64,000 nt of DNA from Mesotoga infera (GTDB lineage Bacteria > Thermotogota > Thermotogae > Petrotogales > Kosmotogaceae): contig NZ_LS974202.1 of the NCBI RefSeq assembly GCF_900157305.1, positions 930,001 through 994,000 on the forward strand, read 5' to 3'. Numbering within the stretch: the first letter of the stretch is position 1; every line of letters starts with the position of its first letter. The notes beneath the pieces are model-generated. The model made no database searches. It had not been told where the DNA came from and saw nothing but the letters and a program-made list of their open reading frames with translations. The position numbers and the translations under genes are program-made. Positions 11,998 to 64,000 of the stretch are shown one piece after another.

Positions 11998-12024
11998 GTC
12001 ATGCCGGACCCGATCCGGCATCCC
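11998..12024 (+). repeat. hairpin repeat (family ATGCCGGA/TCCGGCAT) at intron 1 5' junction
   Basis: GTCATGCCGGA - CCCGA - TCCGGCATCCC forms an 8-bp hairpin. The group II intron starts at the very next base. The same element recurs at about 16471-16500, 32010-32035, 39257-39275 and 44017-44040. Confidence 0.85.
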
Positions 12025-13959
12025 GTGCGCCCGGCATGGTACACAACTATAGGGTGAAAGACCCGAATGTGGGGAGTCAAAGAAGCATTAGCCAGAGGCA
12101 AGGGTGTCACTGGTAACGGTGAATCTGAAGGAAGCCCGAGGCAAAGTCCGGAACTGAACGAAAGTGAACCAGAGATGGCCGTTACAGAGGGTAACCCTGC
12201 GAGATAAGGGAAAGCCCTGACTCCAGCTGTAAAGGTTCGGATGGCAGGATTCGGATGAAAGTGGTGTATCTTACCCGGGGAAGTCCTCATGAGTCCGAAA
12301 GGGGTAACCGTTAGCAAGGAGGAGATCCAAGTTAAGGGAAAGCTCAGGAGGATGGCAGATGAACCCGTAGTAGTGAAGAACCTCTCCGAAAGGAGAAGGG
12401 ACCTTGGCTATAAGCCAAGGGGGTGATGAGGAGGTCGAAAGGCTCCATCACTTGCGAAGGGGAGAAGGATCGAAGAAATGTGATCGGAAGACAGTGAAGA
12501 GACTTAGGTCAGACAGTTAAAGACAAGGTACATATTCCCGGGAGGGTAGAGAAGCCAGTCATTAATTGTCGCAACAATATCTGAGGCTGGAGCTGTTGGA
12601 AGGGAGCATGCAGGAGAAAGAGATGAAGTATTACAGTCTAATCGACAAAGTCTATTCGAAGAAGAACCTATTGAAAGCCTATCACAGGGTAAACTCCAAC
12701 AGAGGAGCTCCTGGGATAGACGGAGTAACCGTAAAATCATTCGGGGAGAAACTCCTTGAAGAAATCGAGAGATTATCCGAAGAAATCAAGAGCGGTGAGT
12801 ACATGCCCATGCCACTCAGGAGAGTAGAAATCCCAAAAGCAGATGGTAAAACAAGGCAATTGGGAATACCTACTGTGAGAGACAGGGTGGTACAACAATC
12901 TCTCAAGGAGATACTGGAACCTATATTCGAGGAAAGATTCCATCCCTCCAGTTACGGTTACAGAAAGGGAAGAAATGCCTGGCAGGCGGTGGAGAAGGCG
13001 AAAGCTTTTGCATCCAAATACGGTCTGTGCAATGTAGTGGAACTTGACCTGAGCAAATGTTTCGACACTCTGGATCATGAGAAGATAATAGACTCCGTAG
13101 CAGAGAGAGTGAGTGATGGAAAGATACTCAAACTCATACGCGCAATGCTGAAGAGCGGAGTAATGGAAGATGGAGTCTGGAAGGCAACAGAAACTGGCAG
13201 TCCACAGGGTAGTGTAATAAGTCCCCTGCTGGCGAACATCTACCTGGACGAGTTCGACCAGAAGATGAAAGCCAGAGGAATAAGGATAGTCAGATATGCA
13301 GACGACATATTAATCTTCTCGAAAACCCAGGAAGAAGCCCGAGAGTTTCTGGCAATCGCGATCAACATACTGGAGATTGACATGAAGCTCAAGGTCAACA
13401 GAAACAAGACGAGAATCACAACACTGGAGGAGGGCTTTCACTTTCTTGGCTTCGAAATAAAAGGCGAGAGAGTTGGGATAGAGAAATCCAGATTGAAAAG
13501 GTTCAAGGGAAAGGTCAAGGGACTTACAAGAAGGAACCAGAGCACACCGGTAAAGGAAATAGTGAAAGAGCTAAATCCACTGTTGAGAGGATTTGCCAGC
13601 TATTTCAGGATAGTAGACTTACAATCTACCTTGAGAGGGCTTTTGAGCTGGATAAGGAGAAGGCTTAGAGCCATCATACTACACCAGTGGAAGAGCACAA
13701 AGAAACTGAACAGAGTCCTTAGAAGGGCTGGATGGGAAGAGAAAGTCAATTTGAGAATGAACAAATGGCGCTCTTCTCACACAAAAGCAGTCAATTACGC
13801 CATTCCCAACAGGTTCTTTGAAGAGATGAACTTATTCGATATGACATCGTACTATCATCCCCTGTCGAAGTATCCGATACTCGATCCATGAGCCGTGTAC
13901 GAGGCCCGTACGCACGGTTCTGTGAGAGGACGAGGGGCTCCGCCCCTCTCCTACTCGAT
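12025..13959 (+). mobile_element. group II intron, copy 1 (intact)
   Basis: The 5' end is GTGCG, the group II consensus. A 540-nt structured RNA part precedes a maturase/reverse transcriptase ORF. A 31-nt domain V (13890-13920) folds as GAGCCGTG / CACGGTTC with an inner TACG/CGTA stem and an AGC triad. Domain VI follows (to 13959), with a GC-rich arm and the 3' end CGAT. Ends were set by comparing four copies whose similarity stops exactly at these bases. Length is 1935 nt. It sits in a repeat array, not in a gene. The AGC triad argues against a standard class C intron, although insertion after hairpins resembles class C; the class is left open. Confidence 0.93.
12566..13891 (+). CDS. ltrA: group II intron reverse transcriptase/maturase
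   Basis: A 441-residue intron-encoded protein: RT domain with RGAPGIDGVTV (RT-1), YRKGRNAWQAV, SPQGSVISPLLANIYL (RT-4, the group II form, not the SQ form of DGRs) and the catalytic RYADD (RT-5), then a maturase (X) domain with WIRRRLRAIILHQW. There is no HNH endonuclease domain, so insertion would need existing nicks or single-stranded DNA. It helps splice the intron and copies it into new sites. TTG at 12566 gives the longest frame; ATG at 12608 after GGAAGGGAG is an alternative start. Confidence 0.93.
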   Translation: MSQQYLRLELLEGSMQEKEMKYYSLIDKVYSKKNLLKAYHRVNSNRGAPGIDGVTVKSFGEKLLEEIERLSEEIKSGEYMPMPLRRVEIPKADGKTRQLGIPTVRDRVVQQSLKEILEPIFEERFHPSSYGYRKGRNAWQAVEKAKAFASKYGLCNVVELDLSKCFDTLDHEKIIDSVAERVSDGKILKLIRAMLKSGVMEDGVWKATETGSPQGSVISPLLANIYLDEFDQKMKARGIRIVRYADDILIFSKTQEEAREFLAIAINILEIDMKLKVNRNKTRITTLEEGFHFLGFEIKGERVGIEKSRLKRFKGKVKGLTRRNQSTPVKEIVKELNPLLRGFASYFRIVDLQSTLRGLLSWIRRRLRAIILHQWKSTKKLNRVLRRAGWEEKVNLRMNKWRSSHTKAVNYAIPNRFFEEMNLFDMTSYYHPLSKYPILDP

Positions 13960-14155
13960 CGCTCTTTCCTCTGTCTTGAACCAGGAACGAGGAGCCTGGA
14001 CTCGCAGCGTCGGAACGAGGAACTGCACGAAGGACGGGTCCATGATCTGGGACGAACAACGAAGGACGGCTCTTCTGAGCGAGATCCCGTATAGGATCAT
14101 TACGGGATGACGGTCCTTCTTCCTTCCCATCATTCTAAGCTTGACTCAGAATCTC
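13960..14155. repeat. repeat-rich spacer between introns 1 and 2
   Basis: No gene. It carries a ~130-nt composite repeat beginning CGCTCTTTCCTCTG, whose reverse complement occurs at about 62764-62882 and 63117-63235. A hairpin repeat ATCCCGTA/TACGGGAT follows at about 14081-14111, then ATTCTAAGCTTGACTCAGAAT (about 14131-14151), which directly abuts intron copy 2. Confidence 0.8.
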
Positions 14156-16092
14156 GTGCGCCCGGCATGGTACACAACTATAGGGTGAAAGACCCGAATG
14201 TGGGGAGTCAAAGAAGCATTAGCCAGAGGCAAGGGTGTCACTGGTAACGGTGAATCTGAAGGAAGCCCGAGGCAAAGTCCGGAACTGAACGAAAGTGAAC
14301 CAGAGATGGCCGTTACAGAGGGTAACCCTGCGAGATAAGGGAAAGCCCTGACTCCAGCTGTAAAGGTTCGGATGGCAGGATTCGGATGAAAGTGGTGTAT
14401 CTTACCCGGGGAAGTCCTCATGAGTCCGAAAGGGGTAACCGTTAGCAAGGAGGAGATCCAAGTTAAGGGAAAGCTCAGGAGGATGGCAGATGAACCCGTA
14501 GTAGTGAAGAACCTCTCCGAAAGGAGAAGGGACCTTGGCTATAAGCCAAGGGGGTGATGAGGAGGTCGAAAGGCTCCATCACTTGCGAAGGGGAGAAGGA
14601 TCGAAGAAATGTGATCGGAAGACAGTGAAGAGACTTAGGTCAGACAGTTAAAGACAAGGTACATATTCCCGGGAGGGTAGAGAAGCCAGTCATTAATTGT
14701 CGCAACAATATCTGAGGCTGGAGCTGTTGGAAGGGAGCATGCAGGAGAAAGAGATGAAGTATTACAGTCTAATCGACAAAGTCTATTCGAAGAAGAACCT
14801 ATTGAAAGCCTATCACAGGGTAAACTCCAACAGAGGAGCTCCTGGGATAGACGGAGTAACCGTAAAATCATTCGGGGAGAAACTCCTTGAAGAAATCGAG
14901 AGATTATCCGAAGAAATCAAGAGCGGTGAGTACATGCCCATGCCACTCAGGAGAGTAGAAATCCCAAAAGCAGATGGTAAAACAAGGCAATTGGGAATAC
15001 CTACTGTGAGAGACAGGGTGGTACAACAATCTCTCAAGGAGATACTGGAACCTATATTCGAGGAAAGATTCCATCCCTCCAGTTACGGTTACAGAAAGGG
15101 AAGAAATGCCTGGCAGGCGGTGGAGAAGGCGAAAGCTTTTGCATCCAAATACGGTCTGTGCAATGTAGTGGAACTTGACCTGAGCAAATGTTTCGACACT
15201 CTGGATCATGAGAAGATAATAGACTCCGTAGCAGAGAGAGTGAGTGATGGAAAGATACTCAAACTCATACGCGCAATGCTGAAGAGCGGAGTAATGGAAG
15301 ATGGAGTCTGGAAAGGCAACAGAAAACTGGCAGTCCACAGGGTGGTGTAATAAGTCCCCTGCTGGCGAACATCTACCTGGACGAGTTCGACCAGAAGATG
15401 AAAGCCAGAGGAATAAGGATAGTCAGATATGCAGACGACATATTAATCTTCTCGAAAACCCAGGAAGAAGCCCGAGAGTTTCTGGCAATCGCGATCAACA
15501 TACTGGAGATTGACATGAAGCTCAAGGTCAACAGAAACAAGACGAGAATCACAACACTGGAGGAGGGCTTTCACTTTCTTGGCTTCGAAATAAAAGGCGA
15601 GAGAGTTGGGATAGAGAAATCCAGATTGAAAAGGTTCAAGGGAAAGGTCAAGGGACTTACAAGAAGGAACCAGAGCACACCGGTAAAGGAAATAGTGAAA
15701 GAGCTAAATCCACTGTTGAGAGGATTTGCCAGCTATTTCAGGATAGTAGACTTACAATCTACCTTGAGAGGGCTTTTGAGCTGGATAAGGAGAAGGCTTA
15801 GAGCCATCATACTACACCAGTGGAAGAGCACAAAGAAACTGAACAGAGTCCTTAGAAGGGCTGGATGGGAAGAGAAAGTCAATTTGAGAATGAACAAATG
15901 GCGCTCTTCTCACACAAAAGCAGTCAATTACGCCATTCCCAACAGGTTCTTTGAAGAGATGAACTTATTCGATATGACATCGTACTATCATCCCCTGTCG
16001 AAGTATCCGATACTCGATCCATGAGCCGTGTACGAGCCCCGTACGCACGGTTCTGTGAGAGGACGAGGGGCTCCGCCCCTCTCCTACTCGAT
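14156..16092 (+). mobile_element. group II intron, copy 2 (ORF broken)
   Basis: It starts GTGCG after a hairpin ending AGAATCTC and ends CGAT at 16092. It is 1937 nt, 2 nt longer than copy 1, with otherwise near-identical sequence including domain V. The two extra bases are single A insertions in the RT gene. The RNA parts are complete, so it might still be mobilised by maturase from the other copies. Confidence 0.92.
14697..16024 (+). pseudogene. frameshifted intron reverse transcriptase
   Basis: It matches the intact RT of copy 1 until about 15313. There, GGAAAGGC replaces GGAAGGC and, a few bases later, GAAAACTGG replaces GAAACTGG. These two single-A insertions shift the frame just before RT-4, and the first frame stops at 15350. 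The rest continues in another frame to 16024, with RYADD intact. A GTAGTG to GTGGTG change also turns Ser into Gly in the QGS motif. The protein cannot be made whole without frameshifting. Confidence 0.9.
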
Positions 16093-16680
16093 GGTCCTTC
16101 ATAAGAGCGAAAGAGCGAGATCCCGTATAGAACCATTACGGGATGACAGTGCGGGGGAGCATTTCAAGACAGACTCTCCCTTCACGTCATCCTGACGTGC
16201 TCCTAGTCAGGATCCCGGTCTTTCTCCCTTCCCGTCATGCCGGACTCGCTTGACGTCATTCTGAGCTTGACTCAGAATCTGCTCTTTCAACGTTAAGGAA
16301 CGAGATCCCGTATAGAACCATTACGGGATGACAGGATGGGGGCACTAAAGAACGAGATCCCGTATAGGATCACTACGGGATGACATGAGTGGGGTGGTTA
16401 ACGGGATGACAATCCCCTCACGTCATCCTGACGTGCTCCTAGTCAGGACCCCGGTCTTTCCTCCCTTCCCGTCATGCCGGACCCCGATCCGGCATCCCGG
16501 TCTTTCCTCCTCAGAAAGAGCCGGAGCGAGATCCCGTATAAGAGCACTACGGGATGACCCTGAAGAGGTTAGAAAATCAAGATCTTAACGCTTTTCACAC
16601 CTCACACCTCTGGCCTCTGACCTCAGGTTTACCAGGAACCTGGACGCGCAGCGTCGGAACGATTAACCGCTCTAATGTAT
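16093..16680. repeat. array of hairpin repeats
   Basis: No gene is supported here. At least eight hairpin repeats of four families are strung together: ATCCCGTA/TACGGGAT (about 16117-16148, 16303-16332, 16350-16383, 16528-16558), ATCCTGAC/GTCAGGAT (about 16186-16212, 16420-16450), ATTCTGAG/CTCAGAAT (about 16256-16279) and ATGCCGGA/TCCGGCAT (about 16471-16500). Between them are pieces of the composite repeats seen at 31.8-32.2, 39.0-39.3 and 43.8-44.1 kb. The tail 16590-16665 holds CCTC-rich repeats (CACACCTCTGGCCTCTGACC). Confidence 0.85.
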
Positions 16681-31799: not shown

Positions 31800-32240
31800 T
31801 TGGCGAAAATAGTGGAGCCTGCCCTGCGCGAAAATGGGGACTGACGGGCTCCTGACGTCTGTCCCGTTTTTCGCGAAGACCGGGATCCTGACTAGGAGCG
31901 CGTCAGGATGACGTGAGGGGATTGTCATCCTGTTAACCACCCCACTCATGTCATCCCGTAGTGCTCCTACTAAGAACCGTTGTTGGTTGTGCGTTGTGCG
32001 TAAGACCGCGATGCCGGATCGGGGTCCGGCATGACGGGAAGAAAGAGCCTGCCCTGCGCGAAAATAGAGACTGACGGGCTCCTGACGTCTGTCCCGTTTT
32101 TCGCGAAGACCGTCATCCTGACTAGGAGCGCGTCAGGATGACGTGAGGAGATTGTCATCCCGTTAACCACCCCACTCATGTCATCCCGTAGTGCTCTTAT
32201 ACGGGATCTCGCTCTTTATATACGGGATCTCGTTCTTCTC
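31800..32240. repeat. composite repeats with hairpin elements
   Basis: No gene is supported. A ~150-nt module appears twice in the same direction (about 31818-31975 and 32045-32205): GAAAATGGGGACTGACGGGC, a Cys-like dyad TCCTGACGTC, TTTTTCGCGAAGACC, then hairpin ATCCTGAC/GTCAGGAT and a segment ending TGTCATCCCGTAGTGCTC. Pieces of it occur inverted at about 16380-16450 and 39180-39245. An ATGCCGGA/TCCGGCAT element sits between the two copies at about 32010-32035. Confidence 0.85.
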
Positions 32241-38859: not shown

Positions 38860-39300
38860 ACATGAAGGCTTGTCATTTCATACTTCGAAAGAACGGGAAG
38901 AACCGTCCTTCGAAAGAGCGGTTCTTCGTTGCGGAGCTAGGAACTTCGTTCTTCGTTGAGGATAGCAGTGCGTAGAAGAGCCGTCCATGGGGACCTGAGG
39001 CTAGAGGTAAGAGGCGGGAGGTGTGAAGAGCGTGAAGATCTTGATCTTCTTACCTCTGACCTCATTCCTCTTACCTCTGTTTAGAGGCGAACGAGAAGAG
39101 CGAGAGAACGGGATCCCGTATAGGAGCATTACGGGATGACAGCCTCCTCAGGTCATCCTGACGTACTCCTAGTCAGGATCCCGGTCTTCGCGAAAAACGG
39201 GACAGACGTCAGGAGCCCGTCAGTCCCCATTTTCGCGGTCTTTCCTCCTTCCCGTCATGCCGGACCTGATCCAGCATCTCCACCATCTTTCGAAAGAGTG
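38860..39300. repeat. composite repeats with hairpin elements
   Basis: No gene. It contains the module GAGCGGTTCTTCGTTG + CGGAGCTAGGAAC (shared with 43.8 kb), a CCTC/GAGG-rich inverted piece (about 39000-39085: AGAGGTAAGAGG against CCTCTTACCTCT), and three hairpin repeats: ATCCCGTA/TACGGGAT (about 39110-39140), ATCCTGAC/GTCAGGAT (about 39155-39182) and ATGCCGGA-type (about 39257-39275). A copy of the GACTGACGGGCTCC module in inverse direction lies at 39185-39235. Confidence 0.82.
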
Positions 39301-43759: not shown

Positions 43760-44150
43760 GGGCCATCCTTCGTCAGTCGTCCCGGAGCGTGAACCCGTCC
43801 TTATAGAGAGCGGTTCTTCGTTGTGGAGCTAGGAGCTTTGTTTTTTGTTCAAAAGAACAGTGAGCGGAAGAGCGAGAAGGGCCGGAGCGAGATCCCGTAT
43901 AAGAACACTACGGGATGACAGTCTTACTCCCTTCCCGTCATTCTGAGCTTGACTCAGAATCACGGTTTCCTAAGGAGTGGATCCCGGGTCAGAGCCCGGG
44001 ATGACAGTTGCCTCACGTCATGCCGGACCTGATCCGGCATCTCCGTCCTTCGAAAGAGCGAGAAGAGCGAGATCCCGTATGTAAAGAACGAGGTCCCGTT
44101 TAGGATCATAACGGGATGACACGGGATGACATGAGGGTGAGCGCTGCGAG
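43760..44150. repeat. composite repeats with hairpin elements
   Basis: No gene. It repeats the GAGCGGTTCTTCGTTG + TGGAGCTAGGAGC module of 38.9 kb and carries hairpins ATCCCGTA/TACGGGAT (about 43890-43920, 44090-44120), ATTCTGAG/CTCAGAAT (about 43938-43962) and ATGCCGGA/TCCGGCAT (about 44017-44040). A fifth-looking stem GGATCCCGGGTCAGAGCCCG + GGATGAC (about 43980-44005) has a different pairing. Confidence 0.8.
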
Positions 44151-60636: not shown

Positions 60637-62571
60637 ATCGAGTAGGAGAGGGGCGGAGCCCCTCGTCCTCTCACAGAACCGTGCGTACGGGCCTCGTACA
60701 CGGCTCATGGATCGAGTATCGGATACTTCGACAGGGGATGATAGTACGATGTCATATCGAATAAGTTCATCTCTTCAAAGAACCTGTTGGGAATGGCGTA
60801 ATTGACTGCTTTTGTGTGAGAAGAGCGCCATTTGTTCATTCTCAAATTGACTTTCTCTTCCCATCCAGCCCTTCTAAGGACTCTGTTCAGTTTCTTTGTG
60901 CTCTTCCACTGGTGTAGTATGATGGCTCTAAGCCTTCTCCTTATCCAGCTCAAAAGCCCTCTCAAGGTAGATTGTAAGTCTACTATCCTGAAATAGCTGG
61001 CAAATCCTCTCAACAGTGGATTTAGCTCTTTCACTATTTCCTTTACCGGTGTGCTCTGGTTCCTTCTTGTAAGTCCCTTGACCTTTCCCTTGAACCTTTT
61101 CAATCTGGATTTCTCTATCCCAACTCTCTCGCCTTTTATTTCGAAGCCAAGAAAGTGAAAGCCCTCCTCCAGTGTTGTGATTCTCGTCTTGTTTCTGTTG
61201 ACCTTGAGCTTCATGTCAATCTCCAGTATGTTGATCGCGATTGCCAGAAACTCTCGGGCTTCTTCCTGGGTTTTCGAGAAGATTAATATGTCGTCTGCAT
61301 ATCTGACTATCCTTATTCCTCTGGCTTTCATCTTCTGGTCGAACTCGTCCAGGTAGATGTTCGCCAGCAGGGGACTTATTACACTACCCTGTGGACTGCC
61401 AGTTTCTGTTGCCTTCCAGACTCCATCTTCCATTACTCCGCTCTTCAGCATTGCGCGTATGAGTTTGAGTATCTTTCCATCACTCACTCTCTCTGCTACG
61501 GAGTCTATTATCTTCTCATGATCCAGAGTGTCGAAACATTTGCTCAGGTCAAGTTCCACTACATTGCACAGACCGTATTTGGATGCAAAAGCTTTCGCCT
61601 TCTCCACCGCCTGCCAGGCATTTCTTCCCTTTCTGTAACCGTAACTGGAGGGGTGGAATCTTTCCTCGAATATAGGTTCCAGTATCTCCTTGAGAGATTG
61701 TTGTACCACCCTGTCTCTCACAGCAGGTATTCCCAATTGCCTTGTTTTACCATCTGCTTTTGGGATTTCTACTCTCCTGAGTGGCATGGGCATGTACTCA
61801 CCGCTCTTGATTTCTTCGGATAATCTCTCGATTTCTTCGAGGAGTTTCTCCCCGAATGATTTTACGGTTACTCCGTCTATCCCAGGAGCTCCTCTGTTGG
61901 AGTTTACCCTGTGATAGGCTTTCAATAGGTTCTTCTTCGAATAGACTTTGTCGATTAGACTGTAATACTTCATCTCTTTCTCCTGCATGCTCCCTTCCAA
62001 CAGCTCCAGCCTCAGATATTGTTGCGACAATTAATGACTGGCTTCTCTACCCTCCCGGGAATATGTACCTTGTCTTTAACTGTCTGACCTAAGTCTCTTC
62101 ACTGTCTTCCGATCACATTTCTTCGATCCTTCTCCCCTTCGCAAGTGATGGAGCCTTTCGACCTCATCATCACCCCCTTGGCTTATAGCCAAGGTCCCTT
62201 CTCCTTTCGGAGAGGTTCTTCACTACTACGGGTTCATCTGCCATCCTCCTGAGCTTTCCCTTAACTTGGATCTCCTCCTTGCTAACGGTTACCCCTTTCG
62301 GACTCATGAGGACTTCCCCGGGTAAGATACACCACTTTCATCCGAATCCTGCCATCCGAACCTTTACAGCTGGAGTCAGGGCTTTCCCTTATCTCGCAGG
62401 GTTACCCTCTGTAACGGCCATCTCTGGTTCACTTTCGTTCAGTTCCGGACTTTGCCTCGGGCTTCCTTCAGATTCACCGTTACCAGTGACACCCTTGCCT
62501 CTGGCTAATGCTTCTTTGACTCCCCACATTCGGGTCTTTCACCCTATAGTTGTGTACCATGCCGGGCGCAC
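60637..62571 (-). mobile_element. group II intron, copy 3 (intact)
   Basis: 1935 nt, same length as copy 1, on the minus strand. GTGCG at 62571 directly follows a hairpin ending AGAATCCC (62572-62598); the 3' end CGAT is at 60637. Domain V and VI are unchanged. Very few differences from copy 1 mean a recent spread. Confidence 0.93.
60705..62030 (-). CDS. ltrA: group II intron reverse transcriptase/maturase (copy 3)
   Basis: A 441-residue intact protein, same as copy 1 except for one Thr to Ala change in GIPAVRDRV. All RT motifs (SPQGSVISP, RYADD) and the maturase domain are kept; no endonuclease domain. Confidence 0.92.
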   Translation of the reverse strand: MSQQYLRLELLEGSMQEKEMKYYSLIDKVYSKKNLLKAYHRVNSNRGAPGIDGVTVKSFGEKLLEEIERLSEEIKSGEYMPMPLRRVEIPKADGKTRQLGIPAVRDRVVQQSLKEILEPIFEERFHPSSYGYRKGRNAWQAVEKAKAFASKYGLCNVVELDLSKCFDTLDHEKIIDSVAERVSDGKILKLIRAMLKSGVMEDGVWKATETGSPQGSVISPLLANIYLDEFDQKMKARGIRIVRYADDILIFSKTQEEAREFLAIAINILEIDMKLKVNRNKTRITTLEEGFHFLGFEIKGERVGIEKSRLKRFKGKVKGLTRRNQSTPVKEIVKELNPLLRGFASYFRIVDLQSTLRGLLSWIRRRLRAIILHQWKSTKKLNRVLRRAGWEEKVNLRMNKWRSSHTKAVNYAIPNRFFEEMNLFDMTSYYHPLSKYPILDP

Positions 62572-63236
62572 GGGATTCTGAGTCAAGCTCAGAATGACGG
62601 GAAGGGAGTAAGACTGTCATCCCGTAGTGTCCCCATGGAGCCTGCCCTGAAATGCTCCTATTCAGGGTCATCCCGTAGTGCTCCTATACGGGATCTCGCT
62701 CTTACCAGGAACCAACAACGAACAACCAACAACCGCTCTTATCATCCCAATATGGTTCTCGCTCAGAAGAGCCGTCCTTCGTTGTTCGTCCCAGATCATG
62801 GACCCGTCCTTGGAAGAGGAGTTTCTCGTTCCGACGCTGCGAGTCCAGGTTCCTCGCTCTTGGTTCAAGACAGAGGAAAGAGCGGGATTCTGAGTCAAGC
62901 TCAGAATGACGGGAAGGAAGGAAAGACTGTCATCCCGTGGTGTCCCCGTACTGTCATCCCGTAGTGTTCCTATACGGGATCTCGTTCTTACCAGGAACCA
63001 ACAACGAACAACCAACAACCGCTCTTATCATCCCAATATGGTTCTCGCTCAACGGTTGGATCACCGACGATACGCACGTCGGTTTCTCCAGTTTCCATCC
63101 CACTATGGTTCTCGCTCAGAAGAGCCGTCCTTCGTTGTTCGTCCCAGATCATGGACCCGTCCTTGGAAGAGGAGTTTCTCGTTCCGACGCTGCGAGTCCA
63201 GGTTCCTCGCTCTTGGTTCAAGACAGAGGAAAGAGC
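62572..63236. repeat. composite repeat array with an uninterrupted intron target
   Basis: Hairpin repeats of the ATTCTGAG/CTCAGAAT family at 62572-62600 and 62884-62912 and of the ATCCCGTA/TACGGGAT family at about 62670-62695 and 62950-62985, together with two direct copies of a ~120-nt module (62764-62882 and 63117-63235; AGAAGAGCCGTCCTTCGTTG ... GACAGAGGAAAGAG). The second copy ends at intron 4. A third, inverted copy is at about 13960-14085. Short pieces CCAACAACGAACAACC repeat at 62710 and 63000. No gene. Confidence 0.85.
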
Positions 63237-64000
63237 ATCGAGTAGGAGAGGGGCGGAGCCCCTCGTCCTCTCACAGAACCGTGCGTACGGGCCTCGTACA
63301 CGGCTCATGGATCGAGTATCGGATACTTCGACAGGGGATGATAGTACGATGTCATATCGAATAAGTTCATCTCTTCAAAGAACCTGTTGGGAATGGCGTA
63401 ATTGACTGCTTTTGTGTGAGAAGAGCGCCATTTGTTCATTCTCAAATTGACTTTCTCTTCCCATCCAGCCCTTCTAAGGACTCTGTTCAGTTTCTTTGTG
63501 CTCTTCCACTGGTGTAGTATGATGGCTCTAAGCCTTCTCCTTATCCAGCTCAAAAGCCCTCTCAAGGTAGATTGTAAGTCTACTATCCTGAAATAGCTGG
63601 CAAATCCTCTCAACAGTGGATTTAGCTCTTTCACTATTTCCTTTACCGGTGTGCTCTGGTTCCTTCTTGTAAGTCCCTTGACCTTTCCCTTGAACCTTTT
63701 CAATCTGGATTTCTCTATCCCAACTCTCTCGCCTTTTGTTTCGAAGCCAAGAAAGTGAAAGCCCTCCTCCAGTGTTGTGATTCTCGTCTTGTTTCTGTTG
63801 ACCTTGAGCTTCATGTCAATCTCCAGTATGTTGATCGCGATTGCCAGAAACTCTCGGGCTTCTTCCTGGGTTTTCGAGAAGATTAATATGTCGTCTGCAT
63901 ATCTGACTATCCTTATTCCTCTGGCTTTCATCTTCTGGTCGAACTCGTCCAGGTAGATGTTCGCCAGCAGGGGACTTATTACACTACCCTGTGGACTGCC
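63237..64000 (-). mobile_element. group II intron, copy 4 (5' part outside window)
   Basis: The 3' end CGAT at 63237 is followed (minus strand) by GCTCTTTCCTCTG, the same flank as copy 1. Domain V/VI and 3' RT half match the other copies; the 5' portion runs past the window edge, so its target hairpin is not visible. Confidence 0.92.
63305..64000 (-). CDS. ltrA: group II intron reverse transcriptase, C-terminal part (cut by window edge)
   Basis: The frame is open from the window edge to the stop at 63305: SPQGSVISP, RYADD and the maturase domain are present. One change from copy 1 is Ile to Thr in FETKGER. Whether the N-terminal half is intact cannot be seen. Confidence 0.88.
   Translation of the reverse strand, partial: GSPQGSVISPLLANIYLDEFDQKMKARGIRIVRYADDILIFSKTQEEAREFLAIAINILEIDMKLKVNRNKTRITTLEEGFHFLGFETKGERVGIEKSRLKRFKGKVKGLTRRNQSTPVKEIVKELNPLLRGFASYFRIVDLQSTLRGLLSWIRRRLRAIILHQWKSTKKLNRVLRRAGWEEKVNLRMNKWRSSHTKAVNYAIPNRFFEEMNLFDMTSYYHPLSKYPILDP

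Follow-up and report, generated by a model that had tools for sequence, protein, structure and literature searches.

The hairpin repeats found in intergenic arrays of Mesotoga infera are probably the CGTC-tagged REPs of Mesotoga, and a class C group II intron has probably specialised on two of their families, guided by its EBS1 and by the compact hairpin. CGTC-tagged REPs are a published superfamily (Di Nocera et al. 2013, PMC3733652), with Mesotoga prima and Kosmotoga olearia among its named hosts. Its members are palindromes of 20-40 bp with an unpaired CGTC (or TGTC, CCTC) end and an 8-9 bp stem starting with complementary AT, mostly with loops of 4-5 nt and the tail CCA, exceptions being reported for these two species. 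In the 2013 survey, no CGTC REP was found beside a tyrosine transposase gene, K. olearia being among the species checked, nor was a dedicated transposase found for them (PMC3733652).

The present analysis covers a stretch of 64,000 nt (the window), the genome that contains it (G000, chromosome C1) and its relatives. The latter include a genus-level genome of 2,974,229 bp, which we take to be M. prima, and two family-level genomes, one of 2,302,126 bp, presumably K. olearia, and one of 2,169,170 bp. All ten genomes of the genus carry the hairpins, in 10 to 394 copies.

In the whole genome (2,965,660 bases), the pattern GTCATNCYGN{8,22}CRGNATC was matched 201 times forward and 193 times in reverse, 394 in all, compared with 0 matches for the reversed control pattern. 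Family shares were determined on a 41% sample of 1.224 Mb, composed of the window and 58 systematic 20-kb stretches. A hairpin starts at 193 of the 1,935 GTCAT sites in this sample, versus 6-29 hairpins for each of eight other trinucleotides ahead of AT. About 178 sampled hairpins belong to recurrent families, with minor stem families present beside six main ones:

CCCGTA family: 54 sampled copies, loop of 9 nt
GCCGGA family: 41 sampled copies, loops of 5 and 6 nt, one of 8 nt
TCTGAG family: 33 sampled copies, loop of 5 nt
CCCGGG family: 15 sampled copies, loop of 6 nt
CCTGAC family: 13 sampled copies, loop of 9 nt
CCTGGC family: 9 sampled copies, loop of 9 nt

The hairpins consist of a (C)GTC tag, an 8-bp stem starting with AT in all families (AT was required by the scan itself), a loop of 5-6 nt (short) or 9 nt (long) and a tail ATCNC, which in the sample mostly reads CTC, CAC or CCC. 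GTC begins nearly all of them, and the base before it is often C, sometimes T or another. The four stem types of the original prediction are indeed present at 16,093-16,590 and in the other places it listed, although the main families number six and CCCGGG was overlooked, despite its occurrence in the window at 43,980-44,005. Likewise, the shared frame proposed at that time was correct for the GTCAT start but not for the common tail, which is ATCNC instead of ATC(C/T)CG. The elements were also said never to lie inside genes, and this is nearly so. ORFs of at least 150 aa cover 83% of the sampled sequence yet contain only 16 of 178 hairpin midpoints, the other 162 lying outside; nearly all of the 16 are in short ORFs spanning arrays, and a long ORF is involved only once (L068), seemingly through a chance match. 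High-copy intergenic palindromes with an unpaired CGTC-type end and an AT-starting 8-bp stem fit the published CGTC-tagged superfamily (PMC3733652), in agreement with the REP-like nature first suggested for them.

To assess covariation, elements were chosen solely for their tag and loop motif, disregarding the 3′ arm. Pairing at 7-8 of the 8 stem positions was observed for 77 of 82 long-loop and 88 of 97 short-loop picks. Among distinct arm pairs, the paired fraction was 0.81 for the long-loop class (shuffled mean 0.63, maximum of 2,000 shuffles 0.74) and 0.57 for the short-loop class (shuffled mean 0.42, maximum of 2,000 shuffles 0.53). Since pairing exceeded all 2,000 shuffles, the matched arms of the predicted families stand, and stem variants without arm covariation, the outcome named as speaking against them, were not what we found.

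The window carries about 22 GTCAT hairpins across seven loci, together with group II intron parts flagged by Rfam:

11998-12022, plus strand: CGTC-type REP hairpin GCCGGA, short loop; landing pad of intron 1
12025-13959, plus strand: group IIC intron 1, 1,935 nt; reverse transcriptase ORF 12566-13891
14083-14111, minus strand: REP hairpin CCCGTA, long loop
14129-14153, plus strand: REP hairpin of the TCTGAG family (TCTAAG variant, tag ATC); landing pad of intron 2
14156-16092, plus strand: group IIC intron 2, 1,937 nt; reverse transcriptase ORF split, 14697-15350 and 15398-16024
16119-16147, minus strand: REP hairpin CCCGTA
16186-16214, plus strand: REP hairpin CCTGAC
16255-16279, plus strand: REP hairpin TCTGAG
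16304-16332, minus strand: REP hairpin CCCGTA
16356-16384, minus strand: REP hairpin CCCGTA
16422-16450, plus strand: REP hairpin CCTGAC, one base changed in the 3′ arm
16471-16496, plus strand: REP hairpin GCCGGA
16530-16558, minus strand: REP hairpin CCCGTA
31828-32208: array of CCTGAC, GCCGGA, CCTGAC and CCCGTA REP hairpins with RAYT-type GGGGACTGAC hairpins
39112-39278: array of CCCGTA(-), CCTGAC(+) and GCCGGA(+), missing at the same site in the relative G003
43891-44120: array of CCCGTA(-), TCTGAG(+), CCCGGG(-), GCCGGA(+) and CCCGTT(-)
43937-44005: within that array, an unoccupied TCTGAG/CCCGGG pair matching intron-filled sites elsewhere
60637-62571, minus strand: group IIC intron 3, 1,935 nt
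62574-62598, minus strand: REP hairpin TCTGAG; landing pad of intron 3
62667-62981: array of CCCGTA(+), TCTGAG(-) and CCCGTA(+)
63237-64000, minus strand: group IIC intron 4, 3′ part, running on past the window end

The array reported from 16,093 starts with the first base directly after intron 2. In this copy, 2 nt longer than most others, the reverse transcriptase frame is split into two ORFs (14,697-16,024). 'Six arrays' had been announced with seven places listed, of which 12.0 and 14.1 kb correspond to one or two hairpins beside introns.

The hairpins occur mostly as heterodimers with fixed spacers, unlike partners usually standing tail-to-tail or tag-to-tag. Sampled neighbours no more than 120 nt apart were in opposite orientation in 102 of 128 cases and almost always came from different families. 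The spacer measured 20 nt in 10 of 14 CCCGGG(+)/TCTGAG(-) pairs, 29 nt in 7 of 13 CCCGTA(+)/GCCGGA(-) pairs and 26 nt in all four CCCGTA(+)/TCTGAG(-) pairs. Arrays are unevenly distributed along the chromosome, with nearly all sampled ones at 0.39-1.5 Mb or near 2.92 Mb and a few at the start of the record. The 28 stretches spanning 1.53-2.89 Mb (L051-L078, G000:C1) gave two hits, one of them chance-like; 0.39-1.5 Mb is dense. In a strand asymmetry check, GC skew was too noisy for placing the origin and terminus. Array content varies among close relatives: the three hairpins of 39.1-39.3 kb are missing from G003 (89-94% identical), as are most of the hairpins found here at 43.9-44.1 kb. This genome is a draft of 80 contigs, so that its count of 18 hairpins is a lower bound, and its match beside introns 1 and 2 of the window stops on one side at a contig end. 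The genome-wide census, RAYT search and comparison of relatives called for by the original prediction have thus yielded the 394 matches, a single RAYT gene and arrays that differ from G003.

The intron 5′ end is present 19 times in the genome, all copies being 100% identical over the matched 63-136 nt, which suggests recent movement of an intron predicted to splice and to be mobile. Where both ends were retrieved, the length is in most copies exactly 1,935 nt. Among PDB entries, the reverse transcriptase is closest to GsI-IIC (294 bits; the best IIB match scores 165 bits, and IIA 142), as is typical of a class C enzyme, and the intron is inserted behind a hairpin with short EBS1/IBS1 pairing, as in group IIC. 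Sixteen of the 19 5′ ends lie 2-3 nt behind the hairpin tail ATC (two bases, once three), and all 16 stand behind a short-loop TCTGAG or GCCGGA hairpin; none of the 19 adjoins a long-loop family. Point changes aside, the filled site L165 differs from the unoccupied TCTGAG/CCCGGG pair at 43,937 of the window by the intron alone. That the repeats are recognised through their structure, as originally proposed for a spreading enzyme, therefore applies to group IIC introns, which use the hairpins as landing pads and had gone unseen. Tandem introns occur at G000:C1:815,460 and 1,437,121 (L017, L021), where the insertion immediately adjoins another copy's 3′ end. At 2,623,586 (L163/L006), a full copy lies at ATCTC with no GTCAT hairpin, indicating that base pairing alone sometimes suffices.

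For the family preference, three identical contexts were counted once, giving 14 distinct contexts. All 14 are on TCTGAG or GCCGGA; with an expected share of 0.43 for each context, the share of these two families among sampled hairpins (43%), the probability of this by chance is ~8e-6, bearing in mind that contexts beyond the identical trio may share ancestry through segmental duplication. The tail ATCTC, perfect for the guide, is carried by 45 of 54 CCCGTA copies, yet CCCGTA never adjoins an intron. Folded as DNA, CCCGTA and TCTGAG reach -6.6 and -6.3 kcal/mol, respectively. Loop size is the clearest difference between the families used by the intron and those not used, the short-loop preference being statistical.

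A pentamer of domain I, found in a conserved setting, varies by species. In the present genome it reads GAGAT and in M. prima CAGAT, the exact complements of ATCTC and ATCTG, respectively, and judging from this complementarity the position appears to behave as EBS1. In M. prima, all six introns (5 distinct flanks) are behind a short-loop CCCGAA hairpin with the tail ATCTG; the matches listed include 22 ATCTG-tailed hairpins, of which 14, counted by eye, are long-loop. Since the putative EBS1 is an exact complement of its own target in both species, the introns seem tuned to REP tails, and such matching, species by species, points to their specialisation on REPs. Seven copies were examined in K. 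olearia. Exact EBS1/target pairs were CTTAC/GTAAG, CGTGA/TCACG and CGAGA/TCTCG; one further copy pairs with a wobble (CTTAC/GTGAG), and three of the seven are without an exact match. EBS1 differs among these copies (L228-L235), and their targets are arrays of other small palindromes (e.g. GCCGCTGCGCGGC, GGTGAG tails). Class C introns usually target hairpins with a T-rich tail, and most introns in more distant Thermotogota, from another family, do lie behind such hairpins.

We propose that the REP copying machinery would depend less on the sequence of the stem than on tag, fold and loop, which would let stems diverge by matched changes. The copying enzyme would be an HUH/Y1-type single-strand transposase, either past or acting in trans. 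The intron EBS1 would then pair with the tail pentamer ATCNC, the compact hairpin substituting for the missing IBS2 contact, and, judging from the way class C introns work, the RNP would reverse-splice between ATCNC and the following G, that is, between the stem and the common end.

As originally stated, no REP transposase is encoded in the window. The only RAYT gene of the genome lies at C1:702,859-703,596; its product scores 69.6 bits, below the NCBIfam cut-off of 80, and contains the HVH motif and the conserved blocks of the family. An IS200/IS605 element was also identified at 628 kb. In enterobacteria and pseudomonads, GTAG-type REPs are spread by RAYTs, and the resident RAYT could play this part for the hairpins. 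It was first considered a clear driver because of its flanking hairpins: CCCGTA hairpins lie 143 bp before and 167 bp after the gene and flank it on both sides in G007 and G004 as well, i.e. in three Mesotoga genomes, one hairpin occupies the same leader position in G000, G007 and both G004 copies, and a hairpin pair is found 170 bp from one of the two RAYT copies of K. olearia. However, aligned copies of the RAYT unit from different sites and relatives share ends that carry a different repeat, GGGACAGAC, resembling the motif published for TIR-type units (PMC3733652). Moreover, no Y1 transposase match was obtained in M. prima, which carries 297 hairpins, nor in the hairpin-bearing G002, G003, G006 and G008, and a GTCAT hairpin lies within 600 bp of only one (L122) among 79 more distant RAYT loci. 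Weakened by the unit ends and by these RAYT-free genomes, this explanation is in our view unlikely, and the resident RAYT appears, from the ends of its unit, to be tied to GGGGACWGAC repeats rather than to CGTC hairpins. Hairpins of the GGGACAGAC type share arrays with GTCAT hairpins. A second hairpin family, GCGAAAATGGGGACTGAC...GTCTGTCCCGTTTTTCGC, is present in the same arrays of the window (~31,828-31,875, 32,063-32,110 and 39,187-39,235), and the RAYT unit bears the motif of this family again in its leader and at its ends. A RAYT-like fragment in a more distant relative (L187, G039:C60) is surrounded by five GTCAT hairpins whose GC-rich stem, ATCGCGGGGT...ACCCCGCGAT, is long. Because M. 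prima holds so many hairpins with no such gene detected, CGTC REPs in Mesotoga might be spread by an agent other than Y1/RAYT, class C introns tracking their turnover by switching EBS1 to the tail of each species; we put this forward tentatively. If true, a retroelement would parasitise a second, unrelated repeat family.

Other explanations dispense with a transposase. Stable hairpins in intergenic gaps could serve as transcription terminators or as mRNA 3′ ends that selection maintains, and not be mobile, the more so as related class C introns of other Thermotogota insert behind ordinary terminators. Yet no T-run follows the hairpins, copies vary between close relatives and many pile up per gap. 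In addition, of 35 gaps with arrays, 10 separate divergent genes, near the share of such gaps, and on account of this orientation in particular we do not favour a terminator role, which seems very improbable. Alternatively, the hairpins could be carried and dispersed by the introns, with exon sequence copied together with the intron itself; introns and hairpins are found in the same parts of the chromosome. Such spread is hardly credible: the intron boundary is behind the hairpin, the abundant long-loop families never adjoin an intron 5′ end and, most tellingly, G009 (265 hairpins) and G004 (137) are rich in hairpins without an intron of this kind. We thus retain CGTC-tagged REPs exploited by a specialised class C intron as the probable explanation. 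Mesotoga allows the question of the CGTC REP mover to be asked, as genomes with and without RAYT both carry hundreds of copies, and natural targets that vary in loop length and stem at similar predicted stability provide a test of how class C introns read a hairpin.

As a kind, the hairpins are already known, being to all appearances CGTC-tagged REPs. Like CGTC-3 REPs (PMC3733652), they have a (C)GTC tag, AT-starting stems of the same length and frame, a short unpaired tail, an intergenic location and heterodimers with conserved spacers. They differ in having at least six stem families in one genome, the tail ATCNC instead of CCA, a 9-nt long-loop class, regional clustering and use as intron targets, the latter unmentioned in that study. 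As in REP/RAYT systems and TIRYT units (PMC2817692, PMC3733652), palindromic repeats and a Y1 transposase coexist in one genome, but the RAYT here appears tied to GGGGACWGAC repeats and not to CGTC hairpins. What is new is a group IIC intron whose guide, judged by base complementarity, is apparently tuned to land behind two hairpin families while sparing others. It resembles the terminator-inserting group IIC introns of Robart et al. (2007), as summarised in PMC3240598 and PMC3898094, in its class C reverse transcriptase, in the combination of a hairpin with short EBS1/IBS1 pairing and in having no IBS2. Unlike the introns described in those summaries, it is directed not to a terminator with a T-run but to dispersed REP tails, 3 nt away from the stem, and its EBS1 matches the REP tail of each species. 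Our literature search returned no report of REP-specialised group IIC introns beyond a figure for Pseudomonas putida, whose group II intron likewise lies in REPs in two of nine copies (PMC1525189), compared with 16 of 19 here and six of six in M. prima, together with guide matching.
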